Origin: Cafeteria roenbergensis
Taxonomy: Eukaryota > Sar > Bigyra > Bicosoecida > Cafeteriaceae
Assembly (NCBI GenBank): GCA_008330645.1
Contig: VLTN01000008.1
Location: 248,001-312,000, forward strand
Length of the DNA: 64,000 bases
Reading direction: 5' to 3'
The notes below the pieces were generated by a model. That model did not search any database. It saw only the letters and a list, made by a program, of their open reading frames with translations, and was not told the origin of the DNA. The translations under genes were made by a program, and so were the position numbers. This document shows, in pieces, positions 18,101 to 42,626 of the stretch (its first letter is position 1; every line of letters starts with the position of its first letter).

Positions 18101-18978
18101 ACTGCGGCATGGGGCCCGAGGCGAGCACGGACCGCGCCCCGCCCACGCTGCTCGCCACCGGAAGCAACGACGCCACGGCCGTGGTCCTTGGCTGGAGGTA
18201 CGACGGCGCCCCTGCGGGACAGGCGCGGGGCCCCTGGCCGTTGCGAGGAGGCCAGTCAGCGCAGGGCAGGAGCCGCTTGCGGCCGAGCTCGGGCACGGTG
18301 CGCTGCGTCCGGTTCGCGTCCCCAGGGGTGCTGGTCACGGGAGGCGGGAGCTCCGACGGCTCGCTCAGCGTTTGGGACGCGGAGGCAATGCGGTCTGACC
18401 CACTGAGCCGGCTGCGCGGCCACGCGGGCACGGTGCACGCTCTGTCGCGCTGCGCGCCCGGGGACGGCCTGGTGCTGTCCGCGAGCGACGACGGAAGCGT
18501 CCGGCTGTGGGACGTGCGCGCCCCGCGCGGAGACGCGGGCGAGGTGGTGTCGGGGCTGCGCGCGGCCGCCCTGTGTGTTGGGTTTTGCCCCGACGCGGGC
18601 GCTGCGCACGGGGGCACGGTTGCCGTGGGAATGGACAACGGCGACATCGCGCTGGCTGACCTGCGGATGCGGGCCGGGGCTGCGTCGGCGCGGCCAGTGC
18701 GAGCCGTGCGGGCGGCGCATAGCGCTGCCGTGCGCTCCGTTGCTTTTTCGCCAAGAGGGGGCTTGCTCCTCTCAGCGTCGTTCGACGGCACGTGTCGAGT
18801 CCTTCACTCCTTCCCTCGTCCTGGCGGCGAGGGGGCCGGCGTGCTGGACGAGGTGGCGCCAGCGGTGGCTGGCGGGGACGGCCAGCGAATGCTGTCGGCG
18901 CGCTGGCACCCGTGGGCCCCGCTGCTCGCCACGACAAGCACCACCGGCGTGCTCAATGTGCTGCATGTTCGCACGTGA
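15154..18978 (+). CDS. WDR47: WDR47 (nemitin)-like LisH/CTLH/WD40 protein
   Basis: WDR47 is a microtubule-associated scaffold in animals. Exons 15154-15234, 15348-15584 and 15712-18978 give 1,194 residues. The first exon supplies MRLEDIVVLVQ, joined to DFLEEQGMLESARALEKES, making a complete LisH motif (about 17-47). CTLH follows (LVLDGRWDAVESVL, about 60-75), then a block with LTYCLTLDSLEEHPQYADWTPARGR (about 130-155), matching the WDR47-specific region rather than SMU1. Residues about 200-790 are low-complexity and Ala/Gly/Arg/acidic-rich. The C-terminal approximately 400 residues form WD40 repeats, seen in FDPTGTSLAVGSN, LLATGSNDATAVVLGW, DGSLSVWDAEAM, LSASDDGSVRLWDVRAP, SVAFSPRGGLLLSASFDG and SARWHPWAPLLATTS. 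Two Met codons (residues 1 and 17) are possible starts. The 3' end converges on VPS13 (234-bp gap). Length exceeds animal WDR47 (about 920) because of the disordered middle. Confidence 0.88.
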
Positions 18979-19212: not shown

Positions 19213-22200
19213 TCAGAGCAAGCCAGGCTTGAGCGCGGCCCGGGCAAGCAAGGCAAGCACCGCCGCACCTGCCCCCGGGGGCAGTGCCGCGGCCGATGCT
19301 GTGCCTCGCGGCTCCGCTGTCGCCAGCGCCCGCAGCAGCGGCGCCGCTCCAGCGAGCGTTGCTGGGCCTGCTGTCAAGGCCACCGACACCGCGTCCGCGG
19401 CAGTTTCGAATGGACTGGCGTTCGATCCGAACGGGAGGGCCTCCCTCAGCACCTGAAGCAAAGCGGCGATTGCCGCGTCGCGCAAGGGCGCCCACGGGTT
19501 GAGCCGCGGGGCTGCTCCGAACAATGCCAAGTCCACGGGCCGTGGGCGCAGCTCCGTGGGGGCCACCGCCCCAGCCTCGGCAAGTGAGACGGTGAGCGCC
19601 GGGATGGAAGCAGTGCCTGGTCGCCTGCGCAGGTCTGGAAGCACGTGAGCCAGCGCCTCCACAGTCGACTGCAGAGGCAGCTCGCCGAGGCTCAGGCCGG
19701 AAGGAAGGCGAGTCGTGGCGAGCACAACGCCCAGCTTCTCCAGCAGGCCCAGCACGGGGGCCACCGCGGTGGCGAGCCCCTCCGGGTGGCTGCGGCCAGC
19801 CCCGTGGCCCGACCCGAGCTGCAGGCTCAGGCTGGCGCCTCCAAAGAGCAGCGTCTCCAGCGACACTTCGGGCGCCGGCTCCGGCTCTCCAGCCGAGCGC
19901 ACTCTGGCTCCGGCGTCGAGCTCCGAGTCCGTAGGCTCTTTGGCAAGCGCACCGCGCAGCAGCCGGGCACGGTATGCAGCGCGCTGGCGCGCGTTGCTCG
20001 ACAGGAGCGCGCCTTGCACCGCGTCCGAGGCCCATGCAGCGAGCCACCGCTCCCGAACGTCCGTCAGCAGCCGCAGCAAGGCGGCTGACACTCTCCCCTG
20101 CGCCGCCTCGTCGTCCGCGGCCTGCGCCTGACTTGCGGCGACGGCTGCAACAAGCTCAGCCGTCCAGTCCGAGGACCGCACGGGAACTGCGCAACGCACC
20201 GGCACGGCGCCGGGAGCAGCGGCGAGCGGGGCCGGGTCGCGCTGCGAGGCCGCCAGCTTCTGCATTCTGGCCACCTGCTTCTCCAGCGCAGATCCGCGCG
20301 CGGGGGCAGCTGGGGCCGGGTCGTCTGCGGGGCCCGGCTCCGCACACGGGTCCTCCTCGTCAGCGGGGCCCGACTGAGTGCGGTTCGAGCCGGATGGCGA
20401 CGCGGCACCGCCCCCAAGCGCCGAGGCCGCGTCCTCTCGCGCCGCGCCGCCCCGTCGGTCCGCAGGCAGCTCAGAGCGAGCCGCAGCAGAAGCGCCGGCG
20501 TCGTCCGCCGGGCAGGGGGCCTCGTGCTGCGGCGAAGGCTCAACCCCAGGCCTGGAACTGGCGGCTGCCGGTCCGGTGGCCGCCGTCGAAGCTGCAGGGC
20601 TCGCCTTGGATGATGCGCCTGAAGGGCGCATCGGCGGGCTTCTAGAGCCCTGGGTGGGGAGCTGCGGCGACGCTGGGGCCTTGCCAGGCGGCTGCGCGCT
20701 GGCGCCAGCGAAGAGGTCTCCAAAGCAGCGCCTGACCGCTTCAGGCGCTGGTCCTGCTGCAGCAGGGATCGCGCGAGACACAGAGTGCCCCCCGGCAAGG
20801 GCGGGGCTGCCTGCCCGGGGCGGCGACATGGCCTCCCCGCCGCCCGGGGCGACGACCGGTGCAAGCGCCGCCGCGAGCCGAAGCGCCATGGCTGGCGACA
20901 TGGGGCCCTGCTGCATGGGGCCGCCGGAGAGGGCATTGAACAGCGACAACCGTGCCTTGGTCGCGACCGCAGCGGCGGCCGACGCTGGGCATGCCAGAGC
21001 GGCGGTGCCGCGGTTGAAGGCCAGCGTGGCGGCGCGCTCTGCGAGCGGCGCAGCCGCATCCAGCGCCTGGCCGAGCGAGGCTAGGAAGGCCCGCTCCCTG
21101 GCATGCGCTGCCTCCACGGCCGCCCGGGGCAGCAGGGCAAAGTCCAGCAGGCTGGCCAGCGTGCTCGGCGGCACGAGCGCCGCGGCTGCGACCAGCGCCG
21201 GGCCAGTCAGCAATGGCGCGAGCGCCAGCGGGGAGGCCGCAGCGTGCTCCACCACGACAGAGGCAAGCCTGGCCTTGCTGTCCGACACAGCGCTGAGGAA
21301 CGCATCTCCAAGGGACGCGGCGGTGTGAAGGGTGGCTCCGCCGATGCGCGCCTCCACGCTGCTTGGCATCCCGGAGGGCGCCGGCGGAAGCACTGACAGC
21401 GTCACGTCGCCGGCCTGGGAGAAGGTCACGCGAGCCGCGACGCCAAGGCCGCGGTGGCTTCCAGCCGCCAGGCCAGCGTCAACGGCCGTCCACGGCAGCA
21501 GTGGGAGCTGCGTCGCCTCTGCAGCTCGACTAGCCTCTTCCGCAGAGGGACCGCGCGACACCTCTGTCGCTGGGGAGACCAGACCGCTTCTCCCTGCCGA
21601 CGCGTGCGGCGAGAGAGCCTCGACCGGGAAGCACCTGGGGGCAGCGGCCAGGGGGCGGGGGTCGTCGTCGCTGCGCACGACCGGCGAGCAGGGGCTTGCC
21701 CAGTCGAAGAGCCCCGCCCGGTCGGAAATGGACGGGGACACCACAAGAGCAGACTGGCCGCCCAGGTCCAGCTCCACGCCGGTGGTGAGCAGCGACGCGG
21801 ACGCCACACTGCTTTGGGGCGCCGCTGACGAGGCGCGCGGGGCCGCGTCCCCGTCGCGCCGCACCCGCATTGACAGCGCCTGGGCTGCAGACACAGGCTG
21901 CCCGGGCGGGAGCTGCCGCTGCCCGCTGAAGCGCGGCTCGATCGCGATGACTGCCACAGTCGGCCCAACCCGGAGTGACGCAAGCCGCGTCTCGTCAGGC
22001 CCGGCGTGCTCGAACGACGGAACCTCGAGCGAGAGCCCTCCCAGCCACAGCCTCGCGATGGCACCCCCGGGCCCGGCCAAGGCGGCCAGGCCGGCGAGGG
22101 GCCCTGGCAGTCCTGTCTCGCTCCGAGGCAGCTGGACGTCGCCGCTGCACTCTACGGGAACCCGGACTGCTGATTCCGCCTCCGAGCTGGCGGACGCAGC

Positions 22201-25200
22201 CTGCGGCCGGCTCTTGGCCAGGCCGCTGGCCTCCGACAGGGCGGCTGCCGATCCTTCGTCGGCGACCCCTTGCCCAGCCACCCCTGCCCCAGCCTCCACA
22301 AGCAACACCAGCGGGCCAGCCTCGGGCGCAAACACCCGGGCACGAACCCTTGTCGCGCCGCTGGAGCTGTCCGGGCCCAGGCCCGCGACGCACTCCTCCC
22401 AGCCGCAGTCGCTGCCTCGCGTCGCGGCGCGCACGGGAACCGCCAGGCTGGCCGAAGCCGAGCCGCCGTGCGCCCATGGTGCGCTGGCGGCCAGCTCCAC
22501 CTGCAGCCACGGGACGTTGGCCTGCGGCACTGCGGCGGCCTCGCCCCGCCCCAGGCGCTGCGTGCGCCAGCTCGCCTGCGCCCGGGACAGCCACGCGTCG
22601 CTGCGGGCGGCTCCCGAGCTGGCCATGGCTGCCGGCTCAGGGCAGGGCAGAAGCATCGACCTGGCCTGGCGCGACCGCACGGTGACTGCGAGCAAGTCTC
22701 CGTTCTCGTCCCCGAGCTGCCGGCACGTCACGGCCACGGCGTGAGTCGCTGTAGGGCCGGCTCCGCAGTGCACGACCAGGAGAGGGGGCAGCACAGGCGG
22801 CGAAGCGGCCTCAGCAAGCGCATGCGCAGGGCCCCGGCGCGGGACCAGCGGCAGCGCGGCCAGCAAGCTCGGCTGAGCGAGGCGGCGGCGGCGCGCCGCA
22901 GCGTCGAGCGCCGGCGTCACAAGGTCGAGCACTGGCTCCGGCAGCAACGAGGGCAGGGCCGCTCGTGTGTTCCGCGACACGGTGCGATATGACACGGCGC
23001 GTAGCCTCACCACAAAGGCACCCGGGACGACGCCGGTGCCGCCTGGCTGGGCGCGAGGCACGGCCTCCACGACAACCGCCGCCACCGCTCCCCTCCCCTC
23101 CGCGCCGGCCGGCGAAGCGCTGCCGCTGCCGAGGCCCGGTGTGCTAGCTGCTCGCCCTCCAACGGCAGGCAGCACGACACCGCCTGGGCGCCTGATGGCG
23201 GGACTGGTGGGGTCGAAAGGAGGCGTCCACGCCACCGAGTGGGTCGCCCTGCCAGTCTGCGACCTGGATCGAAGCCGCACGCGCACTGCCACGGCGCGCC
23301 GGTCTGCGCCGTGGCGCCAGCTCCAAGCAACTTCCTGCAGTCGCGACAGTGGCAGAGCAGGGTACAGCTCCGCGGCAGAGCCCAGCCCCGCCTGGGCCAC
23401 AGCAAGCTCAACCACCTTTGTCTCCGCGTCCACGGCGTCGCAGGCGACGCTGTCGAGCTTTTCCCCTCCAGGGCCTGCTCCGGCCGCCTCAAGCCGCGCG
23501 GCAGGGCCACCGGCAACGCGCCCTGCCGCCATGGCTGCAAAGCTGAGAGCCGGCACCAGGACCAGCTCGGCTGCGCGGTGAGTCGGCGGTGCCTCCTCGG
23601 GCGTGCTCCTCGTGAGCACGAGCGGGAAGGCGCTCGCCACGGAGGCCGGACTGGCCGCAGCAGCGCGAATCGTCGCCGCAGCTGCAGATGCAGCGGCAGC
23701 GGCCGCCTCCGACATGGATGCCGGGGCAGCCTTGCTGCGCCGGGCAGCCGCGCCCGCGTCACCCGCTCCGAGCACTGGCTCCACTGCCCACTCCACCATG
23801 GCCACCGCGCTTGGCTTGGCAGCGAAGACGCCGATCGCGGCAGCGGACACGTGGGAGCCCTCGGACCGCAAGGACAAGCCCCACGCGGCCCCAGCCGCCG
23901 CGCTTGCCACGGCGCCAAGCGGAACCGGCTTGCCGAGCTCCGACCCGGCCCCAAAGTCTTGCTTTCCGCGCAGGCTGAACGGGGCTGGCCATACCGCCTG
24001 CGCGTGCGCTGTCGCCGCGTCGCGCTCCTCCCTGCTCAGCTGCATGGGCGCGCCGCTGAGCACCCAGGCCGTGCTCAGCTCCCAGCCACCGCGGACGCGG
24101 ACGCGCTCGCTCGTCCGGACCTCGCAGCCAGCTGCTGCAACCGCCCCTGCAGCGCTGTCCAAACCCGGTGCGGAGGGAAGGCGTTCCGACCATGGCGCTT
24201 CCAGCACGGGCCTCGTGGCGGCTGCAGGCGAGGCGCGAGCCCGCAGCCCCAGGACCCCGTCGAGGGGGCTGAGGATTCGGCGAAGCGAGCGCTGCTCCGC
24301 CTTTGCAGCATCGGTCTCCAGCGCGGCTCCGCCGAGCGCCGCAGCCTCGGCAACGCGGACGGGGCGAAGCGTCCCGCCACGGCTTGGACTGCGAGCCGGC
24401 CGTGAGGCTGCTGGGCGCCTGGAGGCCTTTCGGCTTGTGGCGCCGCGCCAGCCTGCCAGACGGCTGTTGCTCGAGGATTGCGTCACCGCTGTTGCGACGC
24501 GCCACGCTTCGGAAACGTCGGCCACTGGCACGGCGCTGGAGGGCTCGCCGGGGCGGACCCAGACAAGCGCCCCGGGGGCGCCGTGGGCAGAAGGGTGCAC
24601 CGACAGGACGGCAGCAGCGCTGATGGTGGCAGTCCACAGAGTGTCGCTCCCGCTCCCTGGCCGGACTTCGAGCCTGAGGCAGGACACGCCTCCGCCAGCG
24701 AAGGAGCAGGGCATCCAGGCGACGAGGGGCCGGGGCCGCCCTGCGGCCCGTCGGACGACGGCCACTGGCTCCTCCTCCCACCGGGCGGGCCTGTAGGAGG
24801 CGGCCAAGGTTGCGGCGGCGGCGGCGGCCGCTCTTGCGCCCTTGCTCCCGTCGCCCCCAGCAGGGGAGGTGTCCAGCACCAGAGCCGACCCCTGCGAGCA
24901 CCCAGGCAACTCCAAAACGATGCCTGCAACGCGAGCGTGGCTGCCCATCACGCTCAGCGTGGTGGGACCTCGCGGGCGAAGCGGCCGTCGGAGTGTGGTG
25001 GGGCGCAGCCCCGACGAGCCGACCGTGACAACCGTCGCCGTCACCGCGCACGGCAGCTCGGACCGCACACGAAGCCAAGGAGTGAGAGCATCGGAGCGCG
25101 GACCAGTCGCTGCCGCGCTGGCGGCTGCCGCGTTGGCGGCTGCCGCTGGGGCAGCGGCATCCGCGCCGTCAGCAGCTTCCTGCAGCGCCGTCTCCGGCGC

Positions 25201-28200
25201 GAGAGAGGCCCGCACTCCGGAGAGCGCTTCGGCCGCACCTCGGCCCAGCAGGTCAGCGGCGGCCCTGGCAGCGACCTTCCCACGGCTCTCCGCCTCGGCT
25301 GATGCGGCCTTGGCTGCGGAGGCCAGCATGCAGTCCGCGCTGTCTCGAAGCGTGGCCACGGCAACCGTCGATGCGAGTCTTGGAAGGTGCACGTCCAGCT
25401 CGAGCGGAGCGCCGCTGCCTCCGCGACGAGAGAGCTTGGCGTCCACTGTCACTAGAGGCAGGGCCGGCAGCCAGCTGGAGCTCGAGGGTTCCGGGACGTG
25501 GTCGCTGGCATCCACGGCCACCGACACGCTGACGCTCGCCGTTGCAGCTCTCAGCAGCGGCGCCAGCATCACAGTCGCGCCAACCTGGGCGGCCTTCGCG
25601 CGAACGTGCAGCGGAGGCCCCCCAGGAGCCGTGGGCGGGATTGTTGCAAGCACGCACGACGGGTCAATGTCCAGTCTTCCGGCGATCATCGAGCTCAGCC
25701 GGGCCGACGCGCTCCCGGGTCGCAGGGACGGCGATGTGACTGAGACACTCGGCAGCGCGGCGCCCCCGCCCGGCTGCACCCCGGAGCCCTGGTCCGTCGT
25801 CGGCACCTGCCCAGCTGCGGCCCCAGCCCCAGCCGGGTTCGCGGGGCTGAAGTTGCGAGGCCGCGCGGCAGCCGCGGTGGCCGCGAACACGCTGCCGAGA
25901 ATGGCGGCCGAGCGGGAGTCCACCGCCACCGTCACCTGGCTCATGTGAAGGCTGGCCGACCACACCGTGGACACGGCTCCCGCGTCAACGAGCGCCTGCT
26001 TGGCCGCCTCAAGGCGCCTCGCCGCGAGGGCAGTCGGGCCCTCCGGCAGCACGCCCTCGGCGGCGTCTTGCAGCACGGGGTCCAGCGACACCAGGGCGAG
26101 CGAGAGCTCGGGATCGAGCCACAGCGCCGGCGCGGAGCCGTCTCCCCGCCCCCCCTGTTCGGCCGCTGGTGCGCCCCGCGCGCTGGGAGGCTGCTCTCTC
26201 AGGGAGTGCAGGCCGCCCAGAACGGCGAGGGGCAGCAGCGAGCGCGCGGCTCTGCGGTTCGCTTCCGCGGCCTCCTGCCACAGGTGGCGGATGCAGTCGC
26301 TCTCCTCGGGGGCCACGGACGCGTGCGGCAACCAGGGGGCCTCTGCGGCGGCCGCCGCCTCGGATGCCGCTGTGGATCGAGCGGGAGTGAGCGGTGCGCT
26401 GCCCTGCCTCCCTGCGTGGCCGCTTCCCGAGCGACCGGGGGTCCGCGCGGCGTCCACAAGCGCCGAATCCGACCCCACCGAGGACCCGGCTTCCGAGAGC
26501 TCAGAGGCGTTGTCGGGAATCGCAGCCGACCACCGGCCGAGCATGCCGGATGGATTCCACGTCGGCGGGCAAATGGGCCATCGCTCGATGTGGGCCTCGA
26601 GCGCTGCCGGCTGCAGCAGGCTCGTTTCTTGGACGGACCTTGCCCCGGACTGCGACGTCGCTGCCACCGCGACGGTGCCGCGTCGCCCCTTGGCCTTGAT
26701 GACAAGCGGCTGCAGCACCCACGACGACATGTGGGCAAGCTCGTCCAAATCGTGGGCGTTTGGGGCAGCAAACAGCGGCCCTGCGCTGCGCCCGTCGCCA
26801 GGAAGCCGACGAGAGGCTGCCCACGCACCGAGTGCCCCCAGCGACACGGCGGAGGTGTTGCACAGGGGCGCTGGGATGGGGACGAGCAGAGCTCGCGCGC
26901 TCACGGAGAACTCGACCACCACGACACCCGCCAAGCCCGCGGTCGCGCCAGCGCCGGCCAGCGCGGACTGGACGAGCGGGGCGCGGCGTGGAAAGTCCAC
27001 GCCGTCGGCGAGGGCGTCTTCACGTTCGTCCTCCTCCGGTGGGCTGGTGCCGTGCGGCGGGACAGCAGCACTGCCATCCGGGCACAAGGCCACAATGAGC
27101 TTGCGCAAAGACACTCTGGCGTCCAGCGGGCACGGCCGCGCGAGCGTGAGCCCACTGGTTCGGGCCAGGGGCACGCTAGGAGAAAGGGAGCCACCGAGGT
27201 CGCCCGCCCCAAGGCCGCCGCGGTGAGTTGCTGCTCCGGCTTCCAATGCAGGCGATGACCGAGAGGCAGCCGGAGACTGCTGGTGGCGCTGCGCCTTGGG
27301 CCCCAGGAGCGATGCTGCTGTCGCGATGGCTTGCACTGCAGCCTGCGTCAGCGTCACGCGGATGGTGTCCACCGCAACCGAGGCGACAGAAAACCGCGAG
27401 ACCCTTGGCCGTCGGGGCTGGGCCACGCCCTCGAATCCCGACGCGGCGTCCTGCGCATGGGGCAAGAATGCCACGTGCCGTTCTCCGCCTGAGTGCAGGC
27501 TGACGCTGGGCGGCAGGCGGAGCTTGAGGCCTTGCGCAAGCCGCCCCTGGCCCAGCATTTCTGAAAGGCTTGCTTCGGCGTGCCACGTCGTCGGCGCCTG
27601 CCCTTGGTGCGGCTGCCGCCTGGCGTCGGCGGCGTCGCTGGTGCTTGCTGGCTCGACCCTCCTGAAGCGGCGGAGCCAGTGCACTGCTCGCCGGCAACGA
27701 ACGGATTGCGCCCAGTTGAGCACGATTGCTTCGGGCGCCTCGCCTCCGGCGCTGCCTCTCGGAGCCGTGCCGCGCACAGCTGCAATCAGCTGCCTCCCGA
27801 AGCTGGAGCGCAGCACCCCAGCGTGCGCTGGCTCGTGCACCAGCTTGGCCGATTCAATCGACACCCGTGCTGCCAGTCCCTGCGCGTCGGACGGCTCCTC
27901 CCGGGCGCTCTCGGAGCCAGCTGCTGGCCGCGCGGCACCCTGCGGCCCGAACACGACGACGTCGAGAAGCACGTTCTCCGTCAGCAGGGCGAGCTCCGCG
28001 TTGCCCCGGAACGACGTCACGCCCGCGAAGTCGCGGTGGCCCATCGAGGCCGTTCGCCAGGCGAGGGTAAGGTCCGACTCGGAAGCGGCAGCGCGCGGGC
28101 GAGAGGCCGCAGAGGGGTATCGCTGCCTGGCTTCGAAGGGCGGCGGGAGCAGCTCGATCTCGTCCACGCCGTCGGCAGAAGGCACCCGCGAGCGGGGCGT

Positions 28201-31200
28201 CCTGGCGGGCGAGTCGATCCCCGAGGTGGACGAGCGCGGGCGGACTGTGCTGGATGCTCGGCGCGGGCTCCGCCGAAGGGGTCCTTCCGCGCCACCTTCG
28301 ACACCGGCTTCCAAGGGAGTGTGGCTCGGGTCGTCGTCTCCGACAGAGTCGTTGCGGCGCCGCTCCGCACGCGCAGCCGCCGCGGAGCTTTCCCCGTGCA
28401 TGCCAGGGGAGCCACTCGCCACAGAGGCCCCGGACGTTGACGACGCTGTGAGTTCGTCGAGAGACTGAACCCTAGCCATCGGGCGGGCCATGCTTCGTGC
28501 TGCCCGGCGGCTTCGGGGCTGTGCCTGAGCGCCAGGCGCGGCGGTGCCGCCGACCTGGCCACGAGGGCCTGCCGGGCTCGCGCGACGTGCGGCCCCAGCG
28601 CGCAAGCTTGGGCCCGCGCCTCCCGGTGAAGGTGCAATCTCGGGCGACAGCGGTCCTGCAAGTGACCGGTCCGCCACTCGCACGATCTCCACAGCAACAG
28701 TGCCGATGCGCACCCTGAACGCGCGCCCCAACGCAGTCACACTGCGCGTTGGGTGCGTCAGCCGTCCCGACGCATCAGGCTCCGCTTGAAGCTGCGCCTC
28801 GCCGCCAGAATGCGGCTCGGCAGCTTCAGCATCTTCCAGCCAGCGGTCGTCCCAGCGATTTTCAACAGAAACGTCGTCATCCTCGTCGTCGTCCTCCGAA
28901 TCGCCCTCGAGCATCACCGTCAGCCCTGCTGCCGCCCTGGCGGGGCCGCGACCCCCAAGTGTCGGAACGGGCGCCTCAAGCCTGGCGCGCGGCGCGAAAG
29001 GCGACGCAGCGACCGACGCGGACGACGGCGCGAAGGGTCTGGCAGAGGGCGAGGCCAGCGCCGGAGGAGGCAGCGAGGAGGCGCTCGTCGCCCTCGGGGT
29101 CAGCGCCGCTCGGGACGCCGGCGCGGCCACGCGGTGGTCATGAAGCAGCGCCTCCGGCGCGACAGGGGACTGCGAAATCGCTCGCGGGAGAGGCGAAGTT
29201 GGCCTGCTGGATGCGGGCGACCTTCGCGTCGGCAACGGGCTCTCTTGGCCCCGGGCAGTCGGCCCGAGCTCGGCGACTTGGACTGGCTCCCGCGAGGCGA
29301 ATCGGCGAACGAGGCGCTCGGCGCTCGAGGATGGAAGGCCGGAGAGCACGGCAGGCGGCAGGTCGAAGTCCCACTCTGGCACTGCGTTGGCCGCAGCGCC
29401 GCGACCGTCGGCCAGGGGCGCGAGGTTCTCGGACCAGACTCGCTCCAGCGCATGCAGCTGAGCACGCGAAAGGCGGAGCGTGAGGCGATCGAGCTCGATC
29501 GCCCCGTAGGTTGGAGGGCCCCCCGGGGCCTGAGGAGGCCGAGCTCGCGCGGACGCCGGCGCCGCCTCCGGAGGCGACGACGACGACGACGCCAGGAGCA
29601 AGGGGAGGGCCACGGTGCCATCCAGGCGCCCGTCCTCCAAGAACGTGAATCGGCGCGGCTCGCAGGACGCTGCCAGACCCACCGCCGCCACTGTCAGGTC
29701 CGGGATCAAGCCGAACGCCGAATCACCCCCGTGCGTGCCCGGCCCCGCCGTGGAGCGGTTGCCCGTTGCGGCAGAGTGTTCCTCCTCGCTTCCCTGGTCA
29801 GGGCCAGGGGCGGCCAGCGCTGCCACGGCAGGCAGGTCAAGCGTGCCTCCGCGAGACGCGCGCAGCTGCGCAGCGGGGGCGGCCGCTGAAAAGCCCTGGG
29901 GTCGCGACCCCCGGCTTGGCGATGCGGCCATCGAGCCCTGCGCCTGGCCGATACCCGCGGCCACGCCACAGCCGACTGTCACGGCGTGGAGCTTCACCTG
30001 AACCCACGGGGTGCGGTCGCATGCAGCCGCCCCGCGCGTGCCGCGCCGCGAGCGGGGCAGCGATGGCGCGGCCGGAGCGGCCGCAAGGTCTGACTCAGCT
30101 GTCGGGTCGGTCGGCTCAGAGCTGCTCGCAGCGCGCGGGTCGAAGTGCCCGTCTTTGCGGAGGCTGCGCATGGAGCCGTCCTGGAGCAGAAGCAGAGGAG
30201 CAACAGGGCTGTCGGCGAGGCGAGCGCCGCCTTCGGCAGCGGGCCGTGGGAGGCCCCGGACGTCGCACACTCTCTCGGGGACAAAGGCGGTGGGACCATC
30301 AATCTCGCACCACATCCGCAAAGCGGTCGCAGAGAGAACACCTTGCCCCGCGCTCGACGGCGAGGCGCGGGACTGGTTGCTCGCGTTCCGTCCTTGGGAG
30401 GGGTCCGCAGCCGGCAGCGAGGCCGCGCTGGTGCCTTCGCTGGCCGCCGACGGGCGCAACCCGGGGGGTCGCCGATGCCTGCGGACATGCTCGCCGTCCG
30501 CCGCGCTGAGCGCGGAGACGTCGTCCGCAAAGTCGTCGGACCGGCCGCTCACTGCATCGGCCAACACGGCCAGAGATGCCGCGGCGGCAGACGTGAACGC
30601 CGGAGTCAGGGTCGTCGCGTAGCTGACCAGCCGAGCCACAAAAGGAGACTCGACGAGGATCTGCGCCGCCCCAACGCGGCCCTGGACTAGCACGGCTCGC
30701 CGAACGCGCGTGGCCGCCCCTCCGTCGGCGCCAGCCTCGGCGGTGCCCAGTCCAACTTTATGGCGCAGCACGGCCGCGCTGCCCAACGCGACCGCGGAGC
30801 CGCCGGGGCCGTCCAGGTCCGAGGCCCGGGGGTAGACGCCGGGCGTGCGGGGATCGTGCAAAAGCGGCGCAATCTCGTCTGCGACCACAGGCAGCAGGGC
30901 CGCTCGGAATTGCAGCGCGCTGCTGGCCCTGGGAGAGTCGTCTCCGGATGGGGTGGCGTGTGGCTGCCCAGCAGTCGCAAATGGCCGACCCGGCCGAGCG
31001 CCCGACGACGCAGCCGCGGCCAGGCCGCCGCCCCCTGGGGGCAGCTTGGGTGCGTCACTGGGTTGCTCTGCCGATTCGCGGACAGGCCCTGGGGCCGCGC
31101 CCACGAAGACAACGGGCTTTGACAGGAGCGGAAAGGACCCAACAGGCGTGCTGGCAGGACTCTGGGATTCCCTCTGCCACGGAAGCTCAAGCAGGGAGAC

Positions 31201-34200
31201 ACTGCCGCAGGAGAGGCCCATTGTTGCGGACACCAGCTGGCTCGCTCCCAGCGCGCTGCCGGCGGTCCCAGTGCCCAGCTTGGCCAAGGAGGCGTTGGCG
31301 GCCAGCCGGTTCATGGCCAGCGCGGCCAGCCAGCGCCCCCCGGCGTGCGTTGCAACTGCCAAGTGGCCCACTGACAGCGCCACGTCGGCGTCAACGACGG
31401 AGATGGACGGCCGGGCACTCGGCTCAGGCGCGAGGGCACCTGCGCTGGCGCTGCTGCCAGCCGCGGCGAGGTCGCTGATGGTACCTCTCGCACGACGGGA
31501 CGCGGCCACCCGCGACACTAGGAGCACCGCCTGCCTCAGGGAGAGCACGGACTCTGCAACGGAGCGATTGTCATCCACGTTGGCGGTGGCGCTGCGAGCT
31601 GCGGCCGAGTCCGAGCGGTGGTCGTCGGCTCGTTCGTCCGCGGCAGCCGTCGTGTCGCCGGGGAAGCGCTGCCCCAACAACGCGTCGGCGTCCTCTGCCA
31701 CGCTGTCGTTGGACGCAAACGCCACGGTTGCCTCGGCGATTGCTGCAAGCACTGCGAGCGGCAGCGACGCCGTGGCAACTGCAAACACTCCTGTTGCATG
31801 GGCCGCCACGCTGAGTCCTACCGGGCTCCCAGCGCCGTGTCTCGGAGTGAGCGAGAACCAGGCGTCAAGGAAAGGCGTTGAAACAGCGCTGCCGACCGCC
31901 TCCGGAGCAAGCAAGGACCCAGAGTCGCACGGGCGCAGCCGGGCGACCAGCCCGAGTTCCGATTCGGCTCGCGGAGCCGCCGCTGACTGCAGCACGAACC
32001 GCCGCGGGGAAGCCCGCTGCTCGCGGCAGTCCTCGACACCCCAGCTGCCAACGACAACGCGCAGACTGGCAGAGGATGCTCGATCAGGCTCGCCAGCGCC
32101 GCCCTCGCTTTGCGAAAAAGGCAGACGCCGCACCACTGCCGCCGCCACGACGCATTCCGCCCTGGCGCAAAGAAGGTCTTCGGTCGTCTCCCGAGCAGCG
32201 GGCTCCTCCCCAGACCCTGCGAAGTCCCCATCTTCGGCAGGCAGGCAGGCTGCCTCAAAGTCAAGACGCGACTGGCGCACCAGAGTCAGGCTGGCGTCGT
32301 CCAACGAGACCGACACGCTCAGACCCACTGGCGGCTGTCGCGCGGCCACCATCGCCTCGCGCTGCGGCGACGCCGAGCCGTGGCCGGGACGAGGCGACGA
32401 CTCGCCTGCGCCTGTCCGCGACGGTCCACCACCGGCGGGCGTCCCCTCGGGCGTCACGGGCTGCGCTGCCCTGAGCGGACCCTGGGCCCCGTCGCTCGGC
32501 TCGAGGCCTGCCCCCCACTGGCCGCCATCTGAAGAGTCGCTCTCGAAGTCATCGTCGTCGAATGACCGGCTGCGCACAGGGGGGCCGCGCGAACTTTCGC
32601 GCGAGGAAGTGCGAAGCAGGCGGCGCGGGGGAGTGGGCGTGGGTGCGGCCGGGCTGGCGATTGAGAAGCTGGAGCGGCGCTGGAGGCGCCCCCGCAGCCG
32701 AGACAATGACGACATGTTCAGCGCCTCCCCGGGATCAAGCGCTGCCTCCTCGATGAGGTCCTGCCCGATGGAGTCGATTCCGGTGCGAGGCAGGCGCACC
32801 GGAGTAGCTCGCCCTGCGGTCCTGGCAGCCGAGCCCAAGTCGCTTGCACGGTGCCGGTCCTCCCCGCCACCTCCTGCGCCTCCTGCCCTTTCGCTGGCGT
32901 CGTCCGTTGAGGAGCTGAGCGAGTCGCCGAGAGGGCTTGAGCTGCCGCTTCCGCCCCGCATGCGGCCGTGTGCTCGGCCCCGACGCCCTGAGCGAGCTTC
33001 GCTTGCGCGAGCCCTGCCCTCCGCTCCGCCAGCCGAGCCGTCGTGGTCGCTGTCGCTGTCCCAGGCATCGCCTCCGGCAACGCCCGCATCGGCCGTGCCC
33101 AGCAGCGGGCGGATGGCGGACTCAACCGAAGCTGCGAAGCCCGACAGCACGGTCGCGGCGGCAGCAACCTGCGCAGACGACAGGCGCACCACCGCGCGCC
33201 CAATGACCACGGAGGCCTGCCATGACACTGGAAGCTGGGCCCCCGACAGCCCATCCGCAGCCGAGGCAGCCAGCCGGACCGCGAGCGGGTCGGGCGGGAG
33301 AAGCGTGACGGCGACACGCGCAGCCGGCAAGATCTCCAGCCCTCGCGCAGTTCGCTCCCACGGCTTCCACCAAGGCGTGTCGCCCCGCGCAACCGCTGCG
33401 CTTGTTCGCGACAGCGTCAGGCGCCAAGGCCGTCGCTGAGGCGCGAAGGCTTGGAAGGACGCTGACGCCCCAGGCGACATGGCTCCGCTGCCTGCTGTTG
33501 CTGCTGGCGCTGCTGTTGCTGCGCCAGCAGCCTCAGACGCAGCAGCTCCACGGGCATCTCTGCCAGAGTGGCGGCGCGAGCTATCCACTGACGACGGCGC
33601 GCGAGGCTCGCCGCCGGTCGGCGACATGGGCGCCGGGGTGACGTTCCCGCGGGAGGGAGCGAGCGCCCGCACCAACGGGGATGCCGCCTCCAGCTTGCCC
33701 AGTTGCACCGCGGCCAGAAGGCTCATCGCCGACGTCTCGTCGCTCGGGAGCACGATGGTCGGCGCGCTGACGCTCAGGCGGACCGCAGCCTGCTCTAGCC
33801 AGTCTGGCTGCGACGGAGGCAGCGCCGGGAACTGGAACGAAGGCGCCAGACCAGCACGCGGCTGCTCCTCTCCTGGCTGCTCCCGCTCCGCTGCGTCCCG
33901 GGTTGCCCGGCGTTCACCCTGGCCGCGGTTGGCCGCGCGGGGCCCGGGTCCTCGGCTCTTCGGCTGAGCAAGCGGGAGGAAGCGCAGCGCAGCCTCCATC
34001 ACCCCTGCTGAGGCGACAATGGCCAGCGGGCGAACGTACACCTCAAGAGCATGCGCTGCCGACCCCACCCAGGACGGCCGTGCGGTTCCGTCGAAAATTC
34101 GCAAGTCCGGACCGCGCCGTCTCCGGCCCGATGCCGACGCAACCCGGCCGTCGATGGCCCTGCCCGCGCCGCCTTCCCGCCCGCGGCTGAAGCTGCGGCC

Positions 34201-37200
34201 GTAGCTGCCTCCCGCAGCAAACGGCTGCAGCCTTGCGAACCCCCTGCTCGCGGCTCCGTCGCTTTCTCCGGAAGCGGCTGACTCCAGGTCAGTGAGGCCG
34301 CTGGCGAGCATGGCCGCCGAGCCCTTGCGGCTCATGCGGTGAGGAGAGCGGCGGGACACGCTCGTGGCCCTGGAGGCAACGGAGCCCGTATCGCTGTCAG
34401 CCCCCGCGCGTGCGCGTCGCTGCTGCCGCACGAATCGGTGGCGGCGCGCGTTGCTGCTTGCTCGTGACCCAGCGGCACCGGCCTCGGTATCCGTCGCGTG
34501 GGAGGGGCCGCTGCGGGTGCGCCCCCCGGCCTGGCCCGGCCTGCCAGCCATTCGGCTGGAGGACCGCGTCGGAGGCCGTCCAGCCTCCACGTCGGACGCA
34601 GCCCCAACCGGGACCCTGGCTGCGCCTCGCGTCAGGCCCGAGTGCTCCCCTCCGCCCTGCCAGCCACGGCTGGGCCGCAGGGCCCCGCCGCCGCGCGCCT
34701 CGGACGCGCCGGCCAGCTGGCCGCTGGGCAGGTCCGACTGCGCCAGCACGCCCACGGAGCCAGGAGCCATGGGCGACAGCGGCGGGGACTCCAGCTCTGA
34801 CCCGCCGCGCGCCTCCGACGGCGCTGAAGGCGTGGCCAGCGCGTTGAGCCCCGACAGCTCCGCATTCGATCCGAGGGCGCCGCTCCCCTCGCGCAAGCCC
34901 CGCGCCCTCGCAGGCCTTCCAGTCTCGAGCCCGAAAAACGAAGGGCTCTCCGACCGGCGCGCGCTGCCATCGCCAAAGAGTGTCCCCACGCCTCCAAGGA
35001 CGCCGCTCTCCATGAGGCTGCTCCGGCGCCCAGGCTCGCGGTGGCCTGGGCGCGGCAGCGAGCCCCCTTCGTGCTGCCCTCCTGCATATGCGGCACCCGC
35101 TCCGCCCGAAGCCTCCTGCTCTTCGTCCGACGAGCCATCGGCCTCCTGCGCCGCCACCGGGAAGGCCTCCAGAGCAACGAAGAGCAGGCAGTGGTCATAC
35201 ACGGTGCGGTTCAGCGACACCGTGGGGTCGTCCGGGAACCGGCCGCCGCAAGTCGGGTCCTCGTCAGCCACTGCCGCGACGGCAAGCGCTCCCGCTCCCA
35301 CTGCTTGCCTGCCCAGAAAGGGAGAGCCCGCAGGGCTCGCGCCCCCCGAGCCAGGATACCCTGTCCCCCCCGCAGCATTTCCTCCAGAGGAGAGGCGCCA
35401 CGGGTGAGCGTGGCCCCCCGAGCGGTTCCTGTCGGACTCGTAAGGGTCGGCACCGCTCATGCCCGCTTCGTCCTCGGTCACGCCGCCAGCAGCGGCTGTT
35501 CCACCCGCCCCCAACCCCGTGAGCCCTGCCAGCGTGGACAGGGCCGAAACAAAGGCCCCCTCGAAGAAGGACGAACTGCTCGAACCGGCTGCTCCGGCAC
35601 CCTCCCACGGGGCGGGGGCCTCCACCGCCCCAGCGCTGTGCCGCACCGCCTCCATCGCGCCCGCGATGGCACCGGGTGCGGAGGTGTGAGCGGCCATAGC
35701 CTGCGCTGCAAGCCTCGAGCGGCCTGCAAGAGTCAGCCCCGCCGGGCCAGCAGCCACGGCTGCGCTGAGGGGCACGAGCGCAAGGGGCGGTCCGAAGGCG
35801 CCTTGCGACGCTGACGGGTCCTCCATCGAGGCGTGGCGGAACGCCCCGTCGTGCTCGTCCTCGTCGTCCCCGTCCTCGCTGCCTGCCCCAAAAGCGGGAA
35901 CGTCGGGGTCCCCCGCGACGCTGCCTGCTCCGCCCGCGCCCTCCGAGCCAGCAGCGGCGGCCCTCCCAGCAGCGCCTCGCGGAGCGCCGGGCGCGGCGAT
36001 GGGAAGACCCGCCACCATCGCTCTGCGCTTCGCTGCGGCAGCCCTGGCCAGCTGCCGCTCGCGCTGCTGCTGCCGAAGGTACCACCCAGGCGCCCTGGAG
36101 TCGGGGAGAGGCTGCAGCAGCTGCCGGAAGGGGCGCGCAACGTTCACGGCGGCTCCCGCTCCTGCGCCGATGGACGCCACCGCAAGCTCCACGCGGGCCG
36201 AGGAGGGGCGAAGCGCAAGGCGAGCGAAGACGCCTCGGAAGCGGAGGCCGACGAAGGGCTTGTGAGCGTGGGGCGGCACCAGCGCGAGCGCGGTCGTGCT
36301 GCTCTGCGTCAGCGTGTGCCACGCGACCAGTGCTGGAGGGCAGACGGCCGGGCCGCCGCTGGAGTTCTCGAACACGTCATGGGGGCGGTCTCCGCCCCCC
36401 GACACCCACATGGCGCCTCCGCCCTGCCGAGGCGCTGGGCCGCCTGGGTCCTGCCAGCTTCCGGGCCCACCTCTGCCCGGGCCCGCACGATCGGGGCCTT
36501 CGCTCCCCGAAAGCTCGCTGTAGTGCCGGCGCCCGCCAAGTGCTCGCGCAGCGCCTGGCATGGCGGCCTCCGATTCCGTGCCGCTGGCGTTGGTGTGCCA
36601 GCCCGTGCCCTCGCTCTCCGTGCCAGCAGCGCTCGGCCAGCCCCGCGGCCCGCCGCGAGATGTGCCGCTTGAAACAGCAACACCTGATCGCGGCGCCCGA
36701 TGCGACGCCAGGTCCAGCGCGGGCGAACCCGCTCCCGGGAGCTGGCGGTGGTCGCGGCGGGGCCTCATGCCAACGTGGCGATCGCCACGCCTGCGCAGCG
36801 GTGCCCGGCTTGAGGCGATGCCTCCTGCCGCCCCCCTTTGCCCTCGCAGCAGGCCGTGTCTGTCGAGAGCTTGCTCCGCAACAAGGTCCGACTCGGCCCC
36901 GTCTGCCGGCACTGCCGGGCCGGAGTTGGGCCCCGCGCCGCCCGCCCCCGAGGCGCGACGCCGCCTCTGCCCAGACGCAGCCCAGTCCGCGGCGCGGTCC
37001 CGCTCCCCGCCGCTGGGCGGCTCCGAGTGCTGCTCGAAAATGTCGTCGATGAAGTCCACTACCAGCGTCCCCAGCCTCAAGGCAAGCACCATCTGCGTGT
37101 AGCCTGGCGGGTAGGCCCTGGGAATGTCAGCCGGCTGAAAGTCCACGGCGCCGTACAGCGTTTGCCGCTGCACCTGGGAGAGCGGGGCGTTGGGTCCGGA

Positions 37201-40200
37201 GGCCAGGGACAGGGACGACTCGCTGGAGAGGCTGCCAGCGCCCCGCTGGCCCCTGCCAGCGCGGCCGTCTGCTGTGCCGAGCGAGCCAGGAGCACTCAGG
37301 GCGGCAGGCACGCCGTCACCGTCTGCGTCAGCAGTGGAGGGCCCAGATGCTGCCCCCGAGGCGGCCCCGCCGCTGCCGAAGAGGTAGCCGAACACCGACG
37401 TGACAACCGTCGACACGGTCAGAGGCTCCTCCGCGCCGCCGCGACCGTGGGCGTGCTGGTGGCTCTGCTTCCCAGCAGCGACCCCCCCTCCGTACACAGG
37501 CGTCTTGCTTGAAGCCGCTTGCCTGCCCAGGTGGCGGGCGCGCCGCATGCGCGCCTCGGCTGGGCTCTCCCCAGCCCTCGCCGCGCCGCGTCGTGCACCC
37601 GAAGGACTGTCTCTGGCCGACGGGTCTGACGTCTCGCTCGTCGACTGCTCGCCGCCCTCGGTCGCGGCAGCCTGCTGCGCAGCAGCAGCGGCTCCGGCAG
37701 CTGCAGAGGCAGCGGTTGCTCCGCGCCCTGGAGCCGCGTCCCCTGTGCTGGCGTCGCCCGGCGCGGCCCCGAGGCCCGCGAGGCCCTGCAGAGTTGTTCT
37801 TGGCGTCGCAGCTCCGAGAAGCGGGCTCAGGGACAGTCCTTGCGCGTGCATGGCCGAAATGGCCTCATCGCGGCGAAGCTCGGCCTCCGCTTGCAGCCGC
37901 CAGAGTGCCAGCACTGATGTGGGGATGGCGGCGTCGAGCCGGCCGATGGCTGCAAGCTCCAGCCTGTTGAGCTGAGGACGGGCGGCGGGGGCGACGATGA
38001 CCGTGGCGTCCTGCACTGCGGCGGGGGCACCGCAAACGCTCGGTGGCGCCGGCGCCAGCGGCTTGGTTGCCCCCTCGATGCGCTGCTGCGCGAAGGCAGG
38101 CTCGCTCATGAGGGCGTCGAACTCCGCCCAAAGCTGCTGCCGAGCCCGGGCGTCCGCCCTGTCCTCTGGGGCGAGCTCCTCGTCCTCGTCGTCGGTGTCG
38201 GGCAGCTCTGCCAGCTGCGATGTGCACACCTTGAACCGGCGCGCCCATCCCAGCCACCGGTTGGGCGCTTCGCCGCACACCACCCGCAGCATGCCGGGCA
38301 GGTCGGTGGCTGACTCGATTCCGCTCGGCTCGCCGTAGAGCCGCCTGGGGGCCCCTCGCGGCCACATGCGCCTGCGCAGGACGTACTCTTCTGCGCGCGC
38401 CCGCTGTTCGGGGGGCAGCGCCCGCAGGCGGCGCCGGCGTCCAGATGGCGCCTCTGACGGCGAGCGGGAGGCCAGCCGGCTGCCTTGCTGCAGGTCGCTC
38501 TCCTGGTCCGACTCGTTCCCGCCAACGAGGCTCTCGTCCCCCGCGGACACCAGCAGGCCGCGCAGGCGGGGCCCGGTGGCCGCGCCACTTGCTTGAAGCC
38601 GGTGCCGGCGGGTGCGGTGCGACGAAGCCCTCCTGACAGCGTCGCGGTCCTCGGCGTCCGTGACGGTTTCAAAGGCCAGTGCGCCGCTCGCATCGTCCGA
38701 GCTTGCCGCGGAGGCGGAGCTGTGCGCGAGGGTCCGCCGGGACCGTCTGCGGGACTTTTGGCCTCGCCGGCCTCGGTGGCCGTCGCCTCTCGGCACGCGG
38801 CCCGACTCAAGAAATCCTTTGCCCGCGCGGCGACCTCGCTGGGGCCGCTTGTCGCTCCCGCTCAGCCCAGCAGCGCTGCTCCCATCTGCGGCATTGCCGG
38901 CTCCCGCCGTCGCCGCATCCAAGTCGTCGTCGTCGCCTGCCGCGAGCACGGACCCCAGAACGTCTGCGTCGCGGAACGAACCCAGGCTGCCCTCCGCAAG
39001 ACCCTTGTCCGGCGCCACGCTGGCCACAAAGTCTGGAGGCGGGTCTGCGCGACCGGCGAGGCGGCGCTTGTGGAGCGCGACGTACCAGCACCGCACCTGT
39101 CGCTTCACGGCAAGCGAAGCGAGCGACAGCGATCGCGGCGCCGTGGCGCCGAGCGTGCAGGCTGCGGCCAAGACTGCCTGCTCCTCCGAGATGGGCTGCT
39201 GGGGGTGCGCTCTGGACCCAGGAGAGCCGCTTGCTCCCAGCCTGGCCCCCGCGACGTCGGCGGCCAGGGGGCCGGCGAGGCCAGCGGCAGCGGTGGCAGG
39301 CGAGGGAGGAGGGGCCTTGTCTCCTGCTCCCCTTGCGCTGCAGGCCCGCTCTGCCAGCGCACAGGCGGCCGCCCAGCGCCACCACGAGCGCGCGATGGCG
39401 CTGCGGCGAAACAGGGACGCTCTGTCGCCGTGCGCGTCGTATCGCTCCGTCTGCGGCCGCGCCTGCGGCCGCAAGGGGGCGTACCGGCGTCGGACCCGCG
39501 CGAGGCGGAGCGACTCCGCCACCGCCACGGCCCACCGCAGCTGGGAAGAGGCCACTGCCACCCGAACCAGTCCCAGGCGGATGTCCGCCACCTGCTGAGG
39601 GTGTGTGACGTCCTTGGGCCGCTTCGACAGGGACAGCCTCACACTGACGTCGGTGGGCTCAATCACGTACTGGGTGCGCGGCGGGCCGGTCGGAGCCGCC
39701 CTTGGGACAAGCAAGTCGACCCCGTGAAGGGGCAGGCCGTCCAGGTCGTCCCGCTCGGGTCCAGCGCCCAGCGCTGGCGATGCCGACGTCGCAGACACGG
39801 TGCGCGTGTGGCCGGCTCCCGGCATGCACCAAGTCGCGTCCGCTGCAGCAGCTGCGCCTGCGTGCGGGTGGATGGGCACCACAGTGCCCGGCTCGTTGAT
39901 TCCCTGGCCGAGAATGCCCACGAACTCCGCCAGCCCGCACCGCTCCAGGTCGACCGCCCCAAGCACCAGGTCAAACGCTGCCGGGACCATGGAAGTGCGG
40001 GCGATGCGGGCCGCGTCGTCCACGAGGCGGAGGGCGTCGGCCGGGTCGTCTGCGCCCAGGCAGCCGAGCCACACCAGCACGTCCGGCTGCACGCTTTGGG
40101 CGGCGCCGCTTCGCTCCGTGCCGCTGCCCGGGGCGCCGCCAGCGCTTGCGCCGTCCGCAGCCACCCGCAGGGCGTCCATGGCCTGCTTGCGCATGCGCTC

Positions 40201-42626
40201 GATGCCGCCCAGCAGCCGCTCCCGCACCGCTGCCAGCTCCTTCGTCGTCACGCTGCGCAGGCTCGAGCACAGCCCCGACGTCGACTCCCAGCTGCTGGGA
40301 ACAGCCCAGGGCGCCGCCCCGTCGAGGCCGCCACCCCGCATCCCCGCAGCAGCCGCTGCCACCGCGCCGCTCGCGCCGCAGGCCGAGCTGCCTGCTCCGG
40401 GGGCGAGTCTCGCGCCGGCAGCCGACACCCTGCCGAGCGCTGCAGGCGCTGCCCCACTGTCGGGCGCACCGGGGGCAGTTGCCTCCGAGTCGAACCCGCT
40501 CGTCCACCCGCCGTCCGCGGCGGAGCTGACGGCCCGGGTCGTCTGCGGCCGCCGGTGCTGAGGCGCCCGGCCCAGCCTGCCGGCGAGGCGCTCTTGGTGC
40601 CGGCTTGCAACGCCGCTCCGAGCGCGCGTGAGCCGGGCACGCTCGCGCCGGCTGGTGAGCACCGCCGGGTCGCCCGCGTAGCCCCCCGCCGCGCCGCCAC
40701 GGAAGCGGGGCGAGGTGCGGCCACTGCGGGGCGCACCCGACTCGGGGCGCGAAGGCGTCGCCGCTTCGGGAGTCACGGAGTGCAGGGGCGCTCCGCCGGC
40801 TTCGGGCGCTGATGGCTGCTCTGCCATCAGAGCTGACGCAGCGGCCTCGGGCTCTTCCAGACCAAGCAGGGCGCGGCCGCGGGTTGCTGCCTCGCGAAGC
40901 TTTCGTGCGCTCGTTGAGGCCGCCAGCTCCGCCCTCACGGCGTCCCGCACCCGCTGCACCCGCGGCCCGAGCGTGCTGGCGAAGTCTGACTCGTGGCGTC
41001 GCTTGGACACGGCGCGCATCCATTCGCGCTCCACGTGCGCCACCACGTCGGGGGGCGCGGCGCTCATGTCGATGGCCTCCCCACCAGGCCGGCACAGGAA
41101 CAGGTGAGGGTTTACGTAGACAGAGGTGGACCCGATGCGCACCAGCTTGAAGACCATGCCCCCGAGCCCCGACTGACCAGAGGGCTGCGGACTCTCCAGA
41201 GGGACGAAGCGGGGCGTGGCGGCCGTGAACACCGTCTGCCAAGCGGTCACACCTGCGGCGAAGGGGTGGCCGGGCACGGAGTGGCGGTCCTCCAGCCGGA
41301 CGTGAAGCCGTGCGATGCGGACCTGCGAGCGGCGGCGGCGGTGGGGCGGGCGAGGCGTGCGCGTGTCAAGGGAGCGGGGGCGAGGCAGGAGGGCAGTCGC
41401 CGGGGACCGTGCCGAGTGGGGGGCGGGGGGGGGGGGAAGCAGCACGCCCAGTGCGCATCGCTCCGGTGCTCGATGAGTGCGTGTCTGGGTGCGCGCCCAG
41501 TGCGCTCTGAGCGCCCCGCCGGATCGCCAAAGCAAGCAACGCCGAACAAGTGGAACCGAGGGGAAGGGGAGGGGAGGGGGGTGCGCCGAACCGCGACAGC
41601 GCGCTTGCGTTGGCTTTGCTTCGCGTTTGAGCTCACCATGAGGTTGTCGAGGAAGCGTGTCAGAAGCCGCTCGATGAAGCCGGGGGGTGCCGCGGCTGCC
41701 GCAGCGCCCCCCATTGCTGCAGTGGCATCGTCTGCGCCCGACAGCGGAACAATGTGCCACGGCTTGTCCCCAGCCGAGGCTGCTGCGGCTCCGTCGCTCC
41801 GAGCGGCAGCGCCGTCGCCTGCTGCGGGACTGGCGGCGTCGGGGCCGCCGGCTGGGCCAGGCACCGCTCCGCCTGCCACCCCGGCTACCAGCCTCCCTGC
41901 CCACCCAAGCACGCCTGCGCTCGGAAGAACGCCATCGCTCGAGGCTGCGCCGCCCACGGCAGCGCGCTTGATTGAGTCGGTCAGGGCCTGCGCGAGCGCC
42001 TTGCGGGTGCGTTCAACGGCGGCCGCAACAGCAGCTTCCTTGCCCTTGTCGATGGCCCGCGACAAGGCAGGGTGGTCTTCGGCGTCCAGGGCGGTGGTGC
42101 GCAGCAACAGCGACACCCCGCCGATGGAGACGGAGGAGGTGCGCGTTGCGATGTTGCCGTACGGAATGTTCACGTACACCGCGCTGAGCACCCCGCGTGC
42201 CAGAGTGAAGGGCACATCGATGCCCAGGCGCTCCAGGATGTTGGGCTTGAGCTCCAGGTCATCGCGGAATTGCAGGGAGCCTGCGCGCGGCGAGCGGTGA
42301 ATCGGCGCCAGGGGGAGGGCCGAGGATGGCAGGCGCCGCGCAGCTGTGCACAGGAGCGCTGTTCCGCACCCTTGGCCGCGCGCCTGGAGGCCAGTGCGCG
42401 GGGGGAGTGCGAGTCGCGCGCCTCGAATCGCACGGCAGTCTGGCCGTCGTCCGCGCCAGTGGTTTGTGGCACACCACCAGCTGGCCTGCTCGCTTTCGCC
42501 GGCGACCTCACCTTGAAAGATTGCAGTTGCAAACCCACCCGACGGGATCGCCCTCTGGAGGCTTCGCTCTGTGACGTAGTCGCCGAAAATGCGCGCGACA
42601 AACTGGCGAAGCAGCGCTTCCGCCAT
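19213..42626 (-). CDS. VPS13: Giant VPS13-type bridge-like lipid transfer protein
   Basis: VPS13 proteins form rod-like hydrophobic bridges that move bulk glycerolipid between organelles at contact sites. Exons: 42626-42512, 42280-41637 and 41322-19213. The first two encode 253 residues and the last, 22,110 nt without a stop, encodes 7,369, for about 7,622 in all; typical VPS13 is 3,000-4,300. The N-terminus is a clear chorein domain: FVARIFGDYVTERSL, then DDLELKPNILERLGIDVPFTL and VYVNIPYGNIATRTSSV. Across the second intron the join gives LMVRIARLHVRLEDRHSVPGHPFAAGVTAW, matching the family. Beta-strand-rich segments alternate with very long Ala/Ser/Gly/Pro-rich and acidic inserts. Near residue 5,665 DALTPWLRVRSELPCAV resembles the start of a VPS13 adaptor-binding-like region. 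I do not recognise the usual C-terminal ATG2-C or PH-like domains. It shares a 283-bp divergent promoter region with TMEM138. Confidence 0.9.

Follow-up and report, generated by a model that had tools for sequence, protein, structure and literature searches.

A giant protein of Cafeteria roenbergensis with a VPS13-type N-terminus and a putative lipid transfer groove probably padded by disordered linkers

The window analyzed here is a stretch of 64,000 nucleotides from Cafeteria roenbergensis (assembly GCA_008330645.1, contig VLTN01000008.1, positions 248,001 to 312,000 of the forward strand), and it contains on its minus strand, from 42626 to 19213, the coding region of a protein of 7,613 residues, which we refer to as W. 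Members of the VPS13 family take lipids from a donor membrane at their chorein end, and their groove carries these lipids to an acceptor membrane. We propose, with a probability of roughly 0.57, that W is the product of one gene and a bridge-like lipid transfer protein with a VPS13-type N-terminus, in which a groove of ordinary extent is padded by disordered linkers. Throughout, W is compared with three VPS13-like frames that were found in the same genome (36,303,456 bases in 167 contigs) with the Pfam family VPS13_N and that are named C5, C2, and C11 after their contigs.

The spliced model of W consists of three exons with a coding sequence of 22,842 nucleotides and a single terminal TGA. Exon 1 (42539..42626) carries the start codon and opens the chorein domain with 29 codons, MAEALLRQFVARIFGDYVTERSLQRAIPS, and is supported by the sequence, the splice sites, and a Pfam VPS13_N match that starts at residue 2. 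It is followed by intron 1 (42281..42538; 258 nucleotides, GT..CAG), which was placed by the open frame, the splice sites, and the homology across the join. Exon 2 (41637..42280) encodes the remainder of the chorein domain, which is the first unit (RBG1) of the repeating beta-groove, and the beginning of the second groove element, as indicated by positions 2-220 of the VPS13_N profile and by the Protein Data Bank (PDB) chains 6cbc, 9yrm, 9yqp, and 9yg4. Intron 2 (41323..41636; 314 nucleotides, GT..CAG) scores negatively for codon usage whichever of the six frames is taken. Exon 3 (19213..41322), supported by codon-usage windows, encodes residues 245-7613 and the stop codon, and its length of 22,110 nucleotides is exactly that of the single uninterrupted coding exon described in an earlier reading of the bare sequence (the sequence-only reading), which the codon windows below also bear out. 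No other frame in the window is as long as the minus-strand one that ends at 19213, for which mechanical frame calling gives 7,563 residues; the next longest listed has 1,591.

Exon 3 appears to be coding over its length. There are no N bases between 19213 and 42626, the 2-kilobase blocks of the window range from 62 to 77% guanine plus cytosine (GC), and the other five frames of the exon 3 DNA contain 45 to 85 stops. The six frames of exon 3 were also ranked by codon usage, as learned from the three paralogues only. Among 73 adjoining 100-codon windows the W frame came first in 70, and among 71 overlapping 300-codon windows it came first in every one. In a leave-one-out run, in which the codon table for each of the four proteins was built from the remaining three, the frame ranked first in 70/73 (W), 57/59 (C5), 54/62 (C2), and 129/136 (C11) windows of 100 codons and in 71/71, 56/57, 60/60, and 134/134 windows of 300 codons, respectively. 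The test does detect non-coding DNA, because each paralogue frame fails it in its two leading windows, which lie upstream of the first family match. Thus, the W frame is real and coding, beyond chance. It is very improbable that the 22-kilobase frame instead represents several genes, or holds in-frame introns, so that the real protein is shorter: three of the 73 windows of 100 codons (33522-33223, 29322-29023, and 28422-28123) slightly favor another frame, by narrow margins, the model is drawn from genomic sequence, and introns can be free of stops at ∼73% GC, but every 300-codon window backs the W frame, and the test flags non-coding DNA both in the paralogue upstream windows and in intron 2. 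A short in-frame intron may nevertheless lie in one of the three weak windows or elsewhere. The 3' neighbor of W is a convergent plus-strand frame with WD40 matches (15613-18978), and because 234 bases separate the two ends, little room is left for additional W exons.

The VPS13-type character of W comes from its N-terminus. A Pfam search with the first 420 residues gave VPS13_N with an E value of 1.5e-13 and 49.9 bits, covering positions 2-220 of the 1317 in the profile, and phmmer searches of the PDB returned 6cbc (E 2.1e-11), which we take to be Chaetomium Vps13, 9yrm (5.1e-10), the VPS13C chain 9yqp (2.6e-8), and the VPS13A chain 9yg4 (4e-5). These matches confirm the chorein N-terminus in two small exons that had been read from the sequence. 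The alignments to 6cbc, 9yrm, and 9yqp span the chorein domain and the next groove element, and the segment H.R.ED...P..PFA.G(V/I)T, presumably of the VPS13-type RBG1-RBG2 kind, is visible in all three. Similarly, the VPS13-type segment VRIARLHVRLEDRHSVPGHPFAAGVT ... FKLVRIGSTSVYVNP (residues 245-317, 41104..41322) was matched by phmmer to the Vps13, VPS13C, and VPS13A chains. The W N-terminus also matched C5 and C2 by BLASTP, with residues 235-313 aligning to C5 at an E value of 6.5e-5. The ATG2_CAD profile, allowed E values up to 10, did not match the N-terminal part of W. Judged from the homology of its N-terminal chorein domain (RBG1), W is probably a member of the repeating-beta-groove superfamily.

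The extra length of W resembles padding more than additional groove. W is 34% longer than C5, the latter taken as 5,662 residues after the upstream part of its frame had been trimmed by eye. At a threshold of 1.15, the numbers of candidate strands were 130 in W, 140 in C5, 124 in C2, and 227 in C11, and at two other thresholds W and C5 had 180 and 184, and 77 and 94, respectively. Hydrophobic residues (VILFYWMC) numbered 1,659, 1,463, 1,441, and 2,962 in W, C5, C2, and C11, placing W only 13% above C5. In contrast, W has 13 hydrophobic-poor runs with a length of at least 50 residues, compared with three in C5 (nine in C2 and 29 in C11). The longest in W, 138 residues at 7128-7265 (20260..20673), is probably disordered as judged by its composition, and the second longest, likewise recognized by composition, comprises 113 residues at 2457-2569 (34348..34686). 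Low-disorder segments according to TOP-IDP amounted to 2,332 residues in W compared with 2,888 in C5, for which the full stop-to-stop frame of 5,912 residues was used here. Because W surpasses C5 in hydrophobic-poor runs but not in candidate strands, disordered insertion appears likelier than a longer groove; on these crude measures, the potential groove of W would be about that of C5, spread along a longer chain. The sequence-only reading had offered a longer bridge or disordered insertion as the two explanations, and of these the second is now favored by composition and crude strand counts, whereas the first is not; the structure predictions that were run were uninformative. Segments defined by hydrophobic density were dropped because whole-protein shuffles passed nearly as often.

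At the other end of the protein, W differs from all three paralogues. C5, C11, and C2 have a C-terminal region in common, such that a profile made from any two detects the third (32.6, 24.4, and 18.6 bits). This region was not detected in W, which scored below 0 bits with each leave-one-out profile, and in a search of all frames of the window the best E values were 0.25 with a longer profile and 0.31 with a short one. We take the region to be of the ATG2_C / VPS13_C type, and in C11 it adjoins a Pfam VPS13_C match; genome searches found VPS13_C in C11 only and ATG2_CAD in C2 only. Pfam VAB had no match in W or at its genomic place, although among the paralogues this model clearly recognizes C5 alone, and C11 only weakly (E 0.086). 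Neither PH, divergent members of which often escape Pfam models, nor any BLTP3 family turned up in the Pfam scans of W. The C-terminus of W is most likely unusual. The suggestion that its C-terminal adaptor domains are absent or strongly diverged holds for the region shared by the paralogues, found in three of three; for VAB, the lack of a match in W is set beside a profile that is clear in one paralogue of the three. With the C-terminal profiles, the frame at 17455-18255, on the minus strand immediately beyond the 3' end of W, gave E values of 0.37 and 0.79, and these were taken as chance because the frame overlaps WD40-coding DNA.

Past residue 320, the groove is predicted from one motif, LSVSAPTIVLPSDETSAMSLLA (residues 2760-2781, 33712..33777), the sole groove element recognized beyond the N-terminus, which was found with a profile of copies from C5. 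It scores 11.3 bits to the profile of three C5 copies, a score reached by none of 100 block shuffles. A longer profile gives 8.0 bits; 126 of 200 shuffles produced some match to it, and none reached 8.0. The significance is flattered because the type of motif was picked after it had been sighted by eye in W and C5. One of the C5 copies sits in a stretch that aligns to residues 1188-1279 of VPS13C (9yqp) with an E value of 4.2e-5. AlphaFold models made without an alignment were uninformative both for residues 5640-6829 (predicted local distance difference test (pLDDT) 30.6) and for residues 2640-2990 (pLDDT 37.7). Regular expressions for groove motifs were dropped, as their counts were near the shuffle level, and weak Pfam matches in W segments (DUF883, E 0.1; DUF5885, E 0.037; GARP, E 3.1; E2-E1mid, E 0.18) were judged to be chance.

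A number of results speak against an ordinary groove with padding and have to be set beside the evidence above. The strand counter is crude, and with it the excess of candidate strands over shuffled versions of the same protein was larger in W than in C5 at all three thresholds (32 compared with 21, 26 with 16, and 19 with 17). At the threshold of 1.15, the shuffle means were 104 for W, 124 for C5, 108 for C2, and 184 for C11. A larger excess is also what a longer groove would give, that is, a bridge with many more than the usual 12-15 groove units and a long lipid conduit. Such a bridge has a precedent in the 13,455-residue VPS13 of Toxoplasma, for which PMC7613979 gives 188 predicted strands, interpreted as ∼38 units and more than 75 nm. 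However, at none of the three thresholds does W exceed the shorter C5 in candidate strands, its hydrophobic residues do not rise in proportion to its length, and masked BLASTP of each protein against itself at E 1 revealed no internal repeats in W, C5, C2, or C11, and thus no internal duplication in W. We therefore consider a truly longer bridge in W to be quite improbable.

Other contrary results bear on whether W has a groove at all beyond its first few hundred residues. W does not reach the curated VPS13_N cut-off of 80 bits. No VPS13 Pfam family was found past residue 317, either in two overlapping frame pieces or in 15 chosen segments, and no VPS13 chain of the PDB matched beyond that residue. 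Paralogue windows searched with phmmer showed no colinear match to W past the N-terminus, with two C5 windows, and two in the reversed control, reaching at least 8 bits. The second AlphaFold model has helix rather than strand around the motif at 2760-2781, at a pLDDT below 50 there, and a two-state hidden Markov model of composition failed to separate order from disorder, with shuffled proteins giving even more "order". Further, beta-strands are expected to alternate, and alternating hydrophobic windows in W numbered 134 compared with 121 in shuffles, unlike C5, C2, and C11, which were 1.50-fold, 1.52-fold, and 1.40-fold over shuffle, respectively; this weak pattern would be consistent with W having little groove. 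It is therefore conceivable that W is a chorein module fused to a long non-groove protein, scaffold or disordered, a possibility with which the undetected C-terminal region and the presence of one groove motif at most would also agree. In contrast, the motif at 2760-2781 does point to groove beyond the N-terminus. In addition, of 11 scanned pieces of the paralogues, which have a VPS13-like N-terminus and a shared C-terminus, four are silent in Pfam at E 1, among them two of 3,332 residues each (L014 and L017), and because of such long unmatched pieces the silence of W is to be expected. Overall, a protein without a groove past the chorein module is unlikely, though by no means a negligible prospect.

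If W is an ordinary groove padded by linkers, it probably works like VPS13. A donor membrane, usually that of the endoplasmic reticulum (ER), would supply lipids to the chorein end, and the beta-sheet groove, probably of ordinary extent, would carry them toward an acceptor membrane, the extra residues being mostly low-complexity linkers rich in Ala, Gly, Ser, Pro, and Arg between groove elements. Because the C-terminal region of the paralogues is undetected in W, the acceptor end would have to be held by something else. For motifs resembling two phenylalanines in an acidic tract (FFAT), the best score in W was 14.5, compared with a mean best of 14.7 in shuffles, and therefore no ER-anchoring motif is claimed.

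Giant size had been regarded as unusual in itself, a view that the comparisons do not sustain. Three frames with a FAT domain, which marks TOR- and ATM-type kinases, usually about 2,500-3,900 residues in size, extend in this genome over 4,822, 6,494, and 7,147 residues from stop to stop (C36:270337, C80:58872, and C85:58454), and large proteins may be generally stretched and intron-poor here, although the sample is small. Among VPS13s, PMC7613979 records proteins of 7,192 residues in Chlamydomonas, 9,307 in Plasmodium, and 13,455 in Toxoplasma, and W is giant in the same way. Giant VPS13s have been interpreted in two ways, as long bridges or as bridges of ordinary extent with disordered padding: the Toxoplasma protein has been read as long, and PfVPS13L1 as ordinary, both from predictions. 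In PMC13036008, PfVPS13L1 has ∼2-fold as many residues as yeast Vps13 or VPS13A, yet is modeled as an ordinary rod of 12 units with a surplus of largely flexible stretches, a precedent for added residues that do not lengthen the rod. W itself points to padding, but differs from PfVPS13L1, which, according to the same source, retains VAB and C-terminal domains, none of which were detected in W.

Compared with the VPS13 family as a whole (VPS13A/C/D and Vps13), the likeness of W lies in its chorein domain and second groove element, which align to the solved Vps13, VPS13C, and VPS13A chains; W is, however, ∼2-fold as long as the solved VPS13C chain (3,777 residues) and has no recognizable VPS13_M, VAB, or VPS13_C. 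A bridge protein without a specialized C-terminus is also known in SHIP164 / BLTP3, but this has six groove units, both as given in PMC7613979, whereas the N-terminal PDB matches of W are VPS13s. The host also differs, as Plasmodium and Toxoplasma are parasites, whereas that of W is probably a free-living bicosoecid flagellate. A six-frame search of the genome, ignoring introns, found no match to the light-harvesting family PF00504, and the organism is therefore likely a heterotroph; an algal origin, which had been weighed, was set aside for this reason. An open-access literature search in one library for Cafeteria together with VPS13 found nothing.

Like W, the three paralogues are giant uninterrupted frames with a chorein N-terminus, and the four together, one of them without the detectable shared C-terminal region, are a natural comparison set. 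From stop to stop they measure 5,912 (C5), 6,281 (C2), and 13,674 (C11) residues. C5 matches VPS13_N with 104.9 bits and VAB with 30.6. Paralogue C2 matches VPS13_N (37.1 bits) and ATG2_CAD (26.9 bits), both below the curated cut-offs, and may be an ATG2- or VPS13B-like member. C11 (C11:150336-191357, plus strand; L016-L020) matches VPS13_N (31.7 bits), ATG2_CAD (16.8), VPS13_M (27.8), and VAB, all four below the cut-offs, as well as the C2 domain (45.1, in two stretches) and VPS13_C (30.3). Its frame is coding, as judged by codon usage, in all of the overlapping 300-codon windows; a first exon was searched for and not found.

C11 is a more surprising object than W. It has 2.4-fold the length of C5, ∼2-fold its hydrophobic residues, and 1.6-fold its strand-like segments, and is, from these sequence measures, a better candidate than W for a truly longer groove. 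A bolder proposal would be that bridge proteins here are split two ways, with W combining the VPS13 entry end with a new, unrecognized exit end and C11 having a groove truly lengthened in a free-living flagellate. We regard this as distinctly unlikely; if true, it would speak against the view that giant bridges are a feature of intracellular parasites.

In C5 (L011, minus strand), residues 2833-2912, which begin ∼190 residues after the VAB match, resemble dysferlin (4cah, E 2.2e-5; 9b8k, E 0.0015) and a Tectonin-repeat protein (8p5p, E 0.0025).

Elsewhere in the window, a plus-strand frame at 10109-14458 has a partial protein kinase match (E 1.2e-8), and another at 44352-47963 matches the tryptophan/tyrosine permease family (E 1.6e-6). 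An ABC transporter is encoded on the plus strand at 52414-56516, with ABC_tran in 52414-54792 and ABC2_membrane in 55026-56516, probably as one spliced gene. Partly opposite to it lies the 1,591-residue open frame at 49066-53841 on the minus strand, which has no Pfam match at E 0.01 and is perhaps a chance frame at high GC.

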